From Limnobacter sp. (GTDB lineage: Bacteria; Pseudomonadota; Gammaproteobacteria; Burkholderiales; Burkholderiaceae_E): 32,785 bases of DNA. The notes below the pieces were generated by a model that was not told where the DNA came from, ran no database searches, and was given only the letters and a program-made list of their open reading frames with translations. Every line of letters begins with the position of its first letter. The first letter of the stretch is position 1. The translations under genes were made by a program, and so were the position numbers. Shown here piece by piece: positions 29,669 through 32,785 of the stretch. The stretch covers positions 1 through 32,785 of the forward strand of contig JAAZBL010000306.1 in NCBI GenBank assembly GCA_012513825.1. The letters run 5' to 3'.

Positions 29669-30928
29669 ATGCGAATGACGATCCGAGCGCTGCGCGACAG
29701 CGATGGCACCACGAACGCGTACGGCCGCCCCGGAGCGGCCGTTCGACGCAGGCGGCAGGCCAGCCCCGGCGGAGCCCGGCGCTCCGGCGGGCGCCGCGCC
29801 GTTCGTCCTGCTTCGCTGGGCGGACGGCCGTCGACTGCCCGGCCGGGCGCACTGCCCGTCGTGCGCTTCGCCCGCGTCGCTTCGCACGGCGGCGCGACGC
29901 GAACCGCCTGTCGTCCGCAGGGGTCGGCCTCGGCGAACGGGCGCCTGCTGCGCCGGCCGCGACTGCTGATCGTCGGCTGCGGCGACGTCGGCATGCGCGT
30001 GCTGCGCAAGCTCGCGCCCCGGCTGGCCGACGGCCGCCTGGCAGTGCATGCCGTGACCCGCGACGAATCGCGGCAGTCGGTCGCCCGCGCCCTCGGCGCG
30101 CAAACGCTGGCGCTCGACCTCGACGCCAGGCAGGCGCCTTCACGTCTGGCAGGTCTGGCCAGGCGTGCCGTTTATCTGGCGCCCACCCCGCCCGACGGCG
30201 AAGACGACCCGCGACTCGGCCGCGTCATCGCAGCCTGTGCGAGTTCGTGTTCTGCGACCGGGAAGCCGGCGCGCTGGGCCTGGGTCGGCAGCACCGGCGT
30301 CTACGGCGACTGCCAGGGTCTAGAAGTCGACGAAACGCACACCATTGCGCCGACGACAAAGCGTGCGCGCCGCCGCGCAGCCGCCGAGCTACGGCTGCGT
30401 GCTGCCGCGCGACGCGGCGCCCTGTACGCCACGATCCTGCGCGCCCCGGGAATCTATGGACAGGACCGTCTGCCGGTCGAGCGTCTGCGTCAGGGTCTGC
30501 CGGCGCTGTCGCCGGCCGACGACACCTACACGAACCACATCCACGCCGACGACCTCGCGTCGATCTGCTGGATCGCGCTGTTTCGCGGACGCCCGGGCCG
30601 TGTCGTCAATGCCGTCGACAATACGCGCCTGAAGATGGGCGACTGGTTCGACCGCGTCGCCGACACCTTCGCGTTGCCTCGGCCCGAACGGCTGCAGCGT
30701 GAGTTGTTGGCAGGCCGCGTATCGCCGCAGATGCTGTCGTTCATGAACGAATCGCGGCTGCTGTCGAATCGCCGGCTGCTGCGCGAGCTGCGCGTGCAGC
30801 TTCGCTGGCCGACTGTGGACGCCGCGCTGGCGGCAGTGCTTGAATCGCGACGAAGATCGACGGGTCGGCCCCTGGACCAATTCGCCAATACTGATAGCGC
30901 ACCTACGGACGCCGAATCCAGGAGCTGA
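29669..30928 (+). CDS. NAD(P)-binding SDR/epimerase-like protein (YeeZ-like)
   Basis: The core from about residue 95 is an atypical short-chain dehydrogenase/epimerase: RPRLLIVGCGDVGMRVLRKLAPRL (GxGxxG nucleotide motif), AVYLAPTPPDGEDDPR, WVGSTGVYGDCQG, ILRAPGIYGQDRLP, TNHIHADDLASICWIAL and VVNAVDNTRLKMGDWFD. The substrate is unknown. The start is uncertain: the track gives 419 residues, but the first 95 or so are Arg/Gly/Pro rich with no recognisable fold. A GTG at 29861 would shorten it to about 355, and neither has a clear Shine-Dalgarno. The last 25 residues are polar. It is divergent from the reductase across a 200-bp gap in which I see only weak promoter-like AT (TATTAT, 29567-29572). 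Confidence 0.8.
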   Translation: MRMTIRALRDSDGTTNAYGRPGAAVRRRRQASPGGARRSGGRRAVRPASLGGRPSTARPGALPVVRFARVASHGGATRTACRPQGSASANGRLLRRPRLLIVGCGDVGMRVLRKLAPRLADGRLAVHAVTRDESRQSVARALGAQTLALDLDARQAPSRLAGLARRAVYLAPTPPDGEDDPRLGRVIAACASSCSATGKPARWAWVGSTGVYGDCQGLEVDETHTIAPTTKRARRRAAAELRLRAAARRGALYATILRAPGIYGQDRLPVERLRQGLPALSPADDTYTNHIHADDLASICWIALFRGRPGRVVNAVDNTRLKMGDWFDRVADTFALPRPERLQRELLAGRVSPQMLSFMNESRLLSNRRLLRELRVQLRWPTVDAALAAVLESRRRSTGRPLDQFANTDSAPTDAESRS

Positions 30929-30949
30929 GGGCCACGCGACCGCAACGGG

Positions 30950-31711
30950 TCACTTCAAGGCACACGTGTAGGCTCCGTTAACGCCCCGGGAGCAATTCAC
31001 CGACGGCTTATTCGGCCCTGAACTCTGGTAGCGAAGAAATTGCTCGGTATTCGCATCGACCGTACCGGTTGGAGCCAAGCCTCTTGCGGTTTGGAAATCC
31101 TTCAACGCATCAATGCCCGTCGAATTGAGAATGAGCCTGTCTCCTTGGCTCGGATCGCGCAATACATAGGAACTCAAATCTGAGTCCCCGAGCAGCTTCG
31201 CAACTGTGGAGACCTTGGCGTCACTTGCTGCGATCGCGCTGTTGAGATCGCCGTTTCTCGCTGCCGCCTGGACAAGACTCGAATAGATGGACAACCGCGC
31301 CTGCAGGTCAGCTTCGCTCCCTGGCTTCGGCGCCTCGAAAGGCCCCCAAGCGATGTTCATCGCCGAGTAGCCGAACTTCAGGGTCGGTGAACATGTGGCT
31401 CTTGCTTCCTTCGGAATCGCATACGCGAAAGGATGGTCCGCATCGGACTCGAACGAATCCCCGGCCCTGCAGCTGACCGGAGGAGACAAAGCGCCTGTTG
31501 TCTCGACCTTTGCCGCGTATGGTCGGACCCGTTGATTCGTTTCTGGATCGACCCTGTAAAGCTTTCCCGACACTTGCTGTGGCGTTGTCTTGTTGCCTTG
31601 GGAAACCAGTATCTCAACTGACATTATGGACAATGTCTGCGCATGCAGACCAGGATAGACCATAGTCACCAGGCAAACGACCGAAGAGGCGATGTATCGG
31701 ATTGGTCTCAT
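30950..31711 (-). CDS. Exported protein with C-terminal peptidoglycan-binding-like segment
   Basis: Not a protein I recognise as a whole. The 253 residues start with a signal peptide (MRPIRYIASSVVCLVTMVYPGLHA, cut before QT). The middle contains three Cys that could pair (SCRAGDSF, RATCSPTLKFGY) and a helical DLQARLSIYSSLVQAAARNGDLNSAIAASDAKVSTVAKLLGD stretch. The C-terminal IDALKDFQTARGLAPTGTVDANTEQFLRYQ resembles a PG_binding_1 repeat (helix, DFQ-x3-GL, TG-x-VD-x2-T). Two final Cys (NCSRGVNGAYTCALK) may form a disulfide. GGAG is 8 bases before the ATG. It lies 44 bp downstream of the membrane protein gene and is probably co-transcribed with it. A periplasmic, cell-wall-associated role is inference. 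Confidence 0.75.
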   Translation of the reverse strand: MRPIRYIASSVVCLVTMVYPGLHAQTLSIMSVEILVSQGNKTTPQQVSGKLYRVDPETNQRVRPYAAKVETTGALSPPVSCRAGDSFESDADHPFAYAIPKEARATCSPTLKFGYSAMNIAWGPFEAPKPGSEADLQARLSIYSSLVQAAARNGDLNSAIAASDAKVSTVAKLLGDSDLSSYVLRDPSQGDRLILNSTGIDALKDFQTARGLAPTGTVDANTEQFLRYQSSGPNKPSVNCSRGVNGAYTCALK

Positions 31712-31755
31712 TGGTCATCTCCGATTCTTTGGTGTTTCGATTGCTAGCTTTTCGC

Positions 31756-32376
31756 CTACCGTCTCGAGTTCGCCACAAGGAAAATCCCCAGGCCAAGAAT
31801 ACCGAGCCACAGTAGCCCGAGCTCATATCGAACGAATAAAGTAAGCAGGGACCGCTCCATAAGCAAGGGCTCTACATCGGAGGTCGATGAGTCCGTCGGC
31901 AAACTCGATAAGTCACAGTTCGGCACCGCCAATAGCCGCGGAGCCCCCTGTCCAGTGGCCTTCAGGTTCACTTCTACGGACGCACCTGGTGGAAAGTTGA
32001 AAACGGCGAAAGTCAGGAACTCCTCGTTGAAATACTGCTGTTCTATGGCGGGCAACGCAGGACTCCTGACTGTGATCCTTGGATGCTCTGTTATATCGAA
32101 CCGCAGAGAATCGCCAGAAGCGTGTGTTAACGTCAGTAGAAAGCAACGGAACCGTACGCCGCGGGTCAGATTGTCCAACCGAAGGCTCACGGGGAATGCG
32201 CCTCCTTTCTCCCTATGCTGGAATGAGAATGATGAAGGAGCCGCAGCGCTAATGCGAAACTCCACCACAGGGAGGTCAGAGACTTTACCTGTCGTGTAGA
32301 CAATCGACCAACCTACCGCAGCAACGAATGCCGAAAGCAATAGCGGCACGCTTTCCTTCGTTAGCCAGTTGGTCAT
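31756..32376 (-). CDS. Unknown membrane-anchored protein
   Basis: Not recognised. The 206-residue product from the ATG at 32376 has an N-terminal membrane segment (VPLLLSAFVAAVGWSIVY). A domain of about 130 residues rich in beta-prone sequence follows (VVEFRISAAAPSSFSFQH, FPVSLRLDNLTRGVRFRCFLLTLTH, FLTFAVFNFPPGASVEVNLKATG). A C-terminal membrane segment (YELGLLWLGILGLGIFLVANSRR) closes it. The topology suggests an extracytoplasmic domain held by both ends. GGGGAT lies about 5 bases upstream of the ATG. The track's longer frame to 32679 adds an Arg/His-rich stretch over palindromic DNA and is unlikely to be coding. It precedes the exported protein gene by 44 bp. Confidence 0.7.
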   Translation of the reverse strand: MTNWLTKESVPLLLSAFVAAVGWSIVYTTGKVSDLPVVEFRISAAAPSSFSFQHREKGGAFPVSLRLDNLTRGVRFRCFLLTLTHASGDSLRFDITEHPRITVRSPALPAIEQQYFNEEFLTFAVFNFPPGASVEVNLKATGQGAPRLLAVPNCDLSSLPTDSSTSDVEPLLMERSLLTLFVRYELGLLWLGILGLGIFLVANSRR

Positions 32377-32428
32377 ATAGATCCCCGGCCGGCCGGTTGG
32401 AATCGATGTCGTGTGATAGTAGCCACGC

Positions 32429-32460
32429 ACTTGGCGCCAAGTCCAGTTCTCTTGAACTGG
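32429..32460. promoter_or_regulatory. Two adjacent palindromes in the leader of the low-GC gene pair
   Basis: ACTTGGCGCCAAGT (32429-32442) is a perfect 14-bp palindrome. It abuts CCAGTTC-TCTT-GAACTGG (32443-32460), a perfect 7-bp inverted repeat. They lie 53-84 bases upstream of the minus-strand start at 32376 and could be operators or leader hairpins. The rest of the 351-bp gap (32377-32727) holds only promoter-like sequence and a small CGAGCG/CGCTCG repeat (32644-32659). Confidence 0.6.
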
Positions 32461-32514
32461 TGCCGTCGGCGTGTGGTTGATGCGTCTCCGAGGCGAACGC
32501 TTCGGCAACGGCCG

Positions 32515-32542
32515 TCTATATTGTGGCCGCAGGGAACGGCAA
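32515..32542 (-). promoter_or_regulatory. Possible promoter of the low-GC gene pair
   Basis: On the minus strand TTGCCG (32542-32537), a 16-bp spacer and TATAGA (32520-32515) give a sigma-70-like pair, each 4 of 6. A start near 32507 would leave a leader of about 130 bases containing the palindromes. Confidence 0.35.
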
Positions 32543-32700
32543 TGGATCGGTCGCACTTCACGGCGAGATGTGTGAGAACTGGCTTGTGACCGTCGCTGAG
32601 AATCTATTGCAGTCGGCCAGCCTTCGCGATGAGCCAAATGACACGAGCGCTCCCGCTCGGTCTGGCGATCAACGTCCAAGTCGGTGTATCGGCCTAGTTC

Positions 32701-32709
32701 TGATACACT
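32701..32709 (+). promoter_or_regulatory. Extended -10 of the tRNA-Thr gene
   Basis: TGATACACT (TGn plus TACACT) lies 18 bases before the tRNA 5' end, a good distance for a short tRNA leader. No strong -35 is seen. Confidence 0.5.
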
Positions 32710-32727
32710 CCTCTGCTGTTCACGGCA

Positions 32728-32785
32728 GCCGGTGTAGCTCAGTTGGTAGAGCAGCGCATTCGTAATGCGAAGGTCCCCAGTTCGA
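32728..32785 (+). tRNA. tRNA-Thr (anticodon CGT), 3' end cut by window edge
   Basis: GCCGGTG acceptor strand, D-arm TAGCTCAGTTGGTAGAGCA, anticodon arm GCGCATTCGTAATGCG with CGT at 32761-32763, then the variable loop and the start of the T-arm (GTTCGA). The 3' half of the T-arm and acceptor stem lie beyond the window. CGT reads ACG (Thr). Confidence 0.95.

Follow-up and report, generated by a model that had tools for sequence, protein, structure and literature searches.

What are the two small genes at the right end of this contig, how did they come to lie beside a tRNA gene, and could their products act together at the cell envelope? The window, which is the whole stretch of 32,785 nucleotides that was analysed, comprises one complete contig (C219 of 501) of a 4.05 Mb assembly of Limnobacter sp. 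An initial annotation of this DNA had proposed that the pair is accessory content with an envelope function, acquired by transfer, with the tRNA as a possible mark of the vehicle.

Coding capacity and base composition of the pair

Both ORFs are on the minus strand and start with ATG. The first, at 30950 to 31711, encodes a putative exported protein of 253 amino acids with a signal peptide, an uncharacterised middle part and a C-terminal stretch resembling the PG_binding_1 domain. The second, at 31756 to 32376, encodes a protein of 206 amino acids that is predicted from its hydrophobic helices to be anchored twice in the membrane. The 44 bp between them (31712 to 31755, minus strand) hold the ribosome binding site of the exported-protein gene, CGGAG, located 7 nt before the ATG. 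The membrane-protein gene has GGGGAT before its ATG, so that both ORFs are preceded by a plausible ribosome binding site. A gap of this length is consistent with one transcript, and the two genes are probably cotranscribed. The noncoding spacer that follows (32377 to 32727; 59% GC up to position 32700) presumably contains the promoters of the pair on the minus strand and of the tRNA on the plus strand.

The coding status was analysed with 1000 simulated sequences, drawn by a first-order Markov model from the base-to-base transitions of the stretch 30929 to 32700 itself. Two ATG-started ORFs of 253 and 206 amino acids never occurred together (0 of 1000). A single ORF of at least 206 amino acids was obtained in 29 of the 1000 sequences and one of at least 253 in 6. 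The amino acid composition of the two frames was 3.5 and 2.6 standard deviations above simulated sequence, i.e. more protein-like. For genes that have no homologue on which conservation could be tested, the simulation and the amino acid composition make it likely that both ORFs are coding.

The GC content was 0.54 to 0.55 over positions 31001 to 32500, compared with 0.64 to 0.74 elsewhere in the contig. At third codon positions, it was 0.60 to 0.63 in the two ORFs, whereas livM, livG, livF and the reductase gene showed 0.90 to 0.93 and the epimerase-like gene 0.79. As described initially, the pair thus consists of two genes on one strand, 44 bp apart, and no other part of the window is clearly AT-richer.

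The interval between the epimerase-like gene and tRNA-Thr

On its left, the pair is bordered by a NAD-dependent epimerase-like gene (29900 to 30928, plus strand, start approximate), which is conserved in the genus to the left of tRNA-Thr. On its right, the first 58 bases of tRNA-Thr(CGT) are found at 32728 to 32785 on the plus strand, and the contig end cuts off the rest. The tRNA matched positions 1 to 56 of the 71-position Rfam model (E 3e-6), and its anticodon was assigned by comparison with relatives. ARAGORN missed it because it is incomplete at the contig end. The 58 bases are the same in tRNA-Thr(CGT) of one relative (G063), and for most of the remaining genus members the identity is 95 to 97%. 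The upstream region (32701 to 32727) is unlike that of the relatives, most of which have a leader bearing TATAAT about 44 bp before the tRNA. In this genome, a TGATACACT-like sequence some 20 bp ahead of the tRNA is the likely -10 element.

Searches of the genus located the epimerase-like gene in 14 further genomes, and in ten of these tRNA-Thr(CGT) follows after only about 40 to 130 bp. The pair is therefore an insertion carried by this genome alone. Apart from the tRNA, nothing in the genus resembled its DNA except in a few short and weak matches, and a search of 73 other genomes of the family did not recover the exported protein, which was thus found in only one genome among 74. The pair is thus not a fixture of this locus throughout the family, and its description as accessory content missing from relatives was borne out.

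In three relatives, the interval carries other cargo. In G065 and G071 it is about 1.27 kb long and contains a CBS-domain gene and an HPP-family gene with a host-like GC content of 0.71 to 0.72, the gene names being read from the sequence and not from a profile. These genes are located at 2437 to 3704 of L013 (G065) and on L021 (G071). In G064 (L059 / L018) the interval is 2.7 kb long with a GC content of 0.65 and codes for what reads as a large exported protein, which contains repeats of the GATLYAQW type and ends in an IPTL-CTERM-like sequence. Since the cargo differs between G065 and G071, G064 and the genome studied here, the interval is a small variable spot. The exported repeat protein of G064 is a sign that insertions recur in a small spot 5' of the tRNA.

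The contig ends with 35 bases of the tRNA that recur exactly on contig C310 (L003:1490-1689), and the tRNA pattern was found at these two places only. With the expected tRNA beyond the pair and its last bases found again on C310, synteny brackets the insert. This bears on whether the AT-richer 1.8 kb could come from another organism and have been joined to the contig by assembly or binning. The assembly is fragmented and metagenome-like with its 501 contigs, and the stretch lies at a contig end. However, the expected tRNA-Thr(CGT) follows across the pair from the epimerase-like gene and is oriented as it should be, and no repeat on the epimerase side could have caused a misjoin. We regard such an artefact as very improbable.

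The copy on C310 represents a 3' portion of the tRNA. The remaining tRNA bases come next, and after them a terminator-like hairpin that some relatives have in similar form. Beyond the other end of the copy, the DNA is unrelated; it contains a small palindrome and, where the contig stops, the initial four codons of an ORF (MAKV...). Such an arrangement would be expected at the distal boundary of an element that had integrated in the 3' part of tRNA-Thr, and the copy is probably such a junction. The ORF, of which 12 bases are visible, might be the integrase of this element, which is a guess. A search for the integrase by DNA similarity and by pattern gave nothing useful. Three matches to PF00589 were present in the genome, none of them on the contig of the pair or on C310; this contig stops within the tRNA, and the element itself is unassembled. 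Contig C342 was considered as a carrier of the integrase and dropped, as it is a XerD-like chromosomal contig. Of the two marks of integration that had been suggested for inspection, the repeat of the tRNA 3' end was thus found, 35 bp long and exact, while no integrase match fell on either of the two contigs as assembled.

The pair itself sits 5' of the tRNA, outside the two copies of the tRNA 3' part, and the DNA of the element is on the 3' side. The tRNA is therefore not evidence for the route by which the pair arrived, and its reading as the mark of the transfer vehicle was not supported in the form given. Around the pair, no convincing flanking repeat and no recombinase or integrase was detected. 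We also considered that the two genes are what remains of the cargo of an earlier integrative element or prophage that used tRNA-Thr and has since lost its integrase. In favour of this, integration commonly takes place at tRNA genes, C310 has a repeat of the tRNA 3' part with DNA of foreign appearance inside it, and the composition of the pair is deviant. However, elements that use the 3' end of a tRNA insert 3' of it, whereas the pair is 5'. Moreover, neither gene showed phage or plasmid homology, no integrase is linked to them and no att-like repeat was found at the left edge. This origin is unlikely.

Features and homology of the two products

The 253-residue protein starts with the signal peptide MRPIRYIASSVVCLVTMVYPGLHAQ, read directly from the sequence. 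Its C-terminal residues 201 to 226 gave a weak Pfam match to PG_binding_1 (PF01471) with an E value of 2.4e-4 and 21.6 bits, which does not reach the gathering score of 23. The match spans profile positions 32 to 57 of 57, i.e. the second half only. As in secreted PG_binding_1 proteins, a stretch that fits this domain, IDALKDFQTARGLAPTGTVDANTEQFL, follows after a signal peptide. Unlike in these proteins, the score is below the cut-off, the first half of the domain is unmatched, no catalytic domain was detected and the N-terminal 190 residues match nothing. The C-terminus resembles a peptidoglycan-binding fold, and binding to peptidoglycan is predicted.

The 206-residue protein has two hydrophobic helices, near residues 9 to 30 and 180 to 204 or, in a wider delimitation, 9 to 31 and 176 to 204, and ends with Arg-Arg. 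The charges fit a location of both ends inside, and the middle domain (about residues 32 to 175) is predicted to be periplasmic. Together with a low-confidence model, these features suggest an inner membrane helix at each end and a periplasmic domain in between. The envelope localisation proposed initially for both products is supported by the signal peptide and the two helices. Single-sequence structure predictions of the two proteins had a mean pLDDT of 34 and 46 and were too poor for use.

Searches of NCBIfam, PHROGs, plasmids and phages gave nothing significant for either protein, and the anti-phage defence models of PADLOC did not match the pair. Scans of viral and genome contigs returned the peptidoglycan-binding motif only, or nothing, and the sole viral match was to the peptidoglycan-binding stretch. 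Roughly 400 genomes each were sampled from the order, the class and the phylum, and the matches were at chance level or to the motif only; because these searches covered samples, and the contig scans extended no further than close relatives, rare or distant homologues may be missed. For the membrane protein, 399 genomes from the order and as many from the phylum yielded no genuine match. Consequently, neither family could be named, as stated at the outset, and the one likeness to a known family is the PG_binding_1 match below the cut-off.

Several weak matches were rejected after inspection. In G271, the matching frame overlaps genes resembling tricarboxylate-binding receptors, and in G853, G1084, G852, G1028, G1078 and G1043 the alignments were short or of low complexity, some of them running across stop codons. 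Overall, the weak genome matches were judged to be due to chance or to the shared PG_binding motif. The PDB matches to the membrane protein were dismissed as not significant (best E 0.05, SpaK).

The lack of a donor or homologue in the searches made, together with the small variable interval, would also fit old native genes or ORFs formed de novo at this place, diverged beyond recognition, which kept or acquired a low GC content without any transfer. However, the sister genomes hold only about 40 to 130 bp there, and the signal peptide, the two transmembrane helices, the ribosome binding sites and the PG_binding_1-like end look like those of evolved proteins. We consider such a local origin quite unlikely.

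A possible envelope function and its counterparts

We favour the reading that a two-gene insert of about 1.8 kb, specific to this genome, was acquired horizontally between the epimerase-like gene and tRNA-Thr(CGT), and consider it about as likely as not that the two genes are ORFans acquired in this way whose products act at the envelope. Against it count the PG_binding_1 match, which is below the cut-off and limited to half of the profile, the unusable structure models and the lack of a mobile-element signature at the borders of the pair. The first product would be held in the inner membrane by the helices at both ends, exposing its domain in the periplasm. The second would be exported and dock on the wall with its C-terminal peptidoglycan-binding-like domain. 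Docked there, it could meet the membrane-held domain and form a link from the wall to the membrane, or the two could protect against phages, antibacterial agents or toxins. That the proteins may be partners is suggested by the adjacency of their genes only; the specific wall-to-membrane mechanism is unlikely. It is improbable, though conceivable, that the pair represents an undescribed two-component envelope system, in which a wall-binding exported protein works through a double-anchored membrane receptor, and that it stems from a rapidly exchanged pool of surface cargo, delivered to the epimerase/tRNA-Thr interval of the genus by a mechanism that does not involve integration at the tRNA 3' end.

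If the pair is real and functional, two protein families without known relatives join the envelope repertoire. It would also suggest that cargo related to the cell surface can be inserted repeatedly into a small spot 5' of a tRNA gene. The pair is one instance, without comparative leverage.

By analogy only, the pair can be compared with linking systems of the Tol-Pal or OmpA-like type. It has no sequence relation to them, no energised TolQR-like partner adjoins it and no lipoprotein box was seen, but it would likewise combine a membrane-held periplasmic domain with an exported protein of the wall-binding kind. The closer counterparts are lineage-specific ORFans in genomic islands and tRNA-linked spots. 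The pair differs from these in its position 5' of the tRNA and in that no integrase or bordering repeat was found, and it resembles them in being AT-richer, specific to one genome, without homologues and beside a tRNA. In conclusion, the two genes are lineage-specific ORFans that occupy a small variable spot, together an object of a familiar kind.
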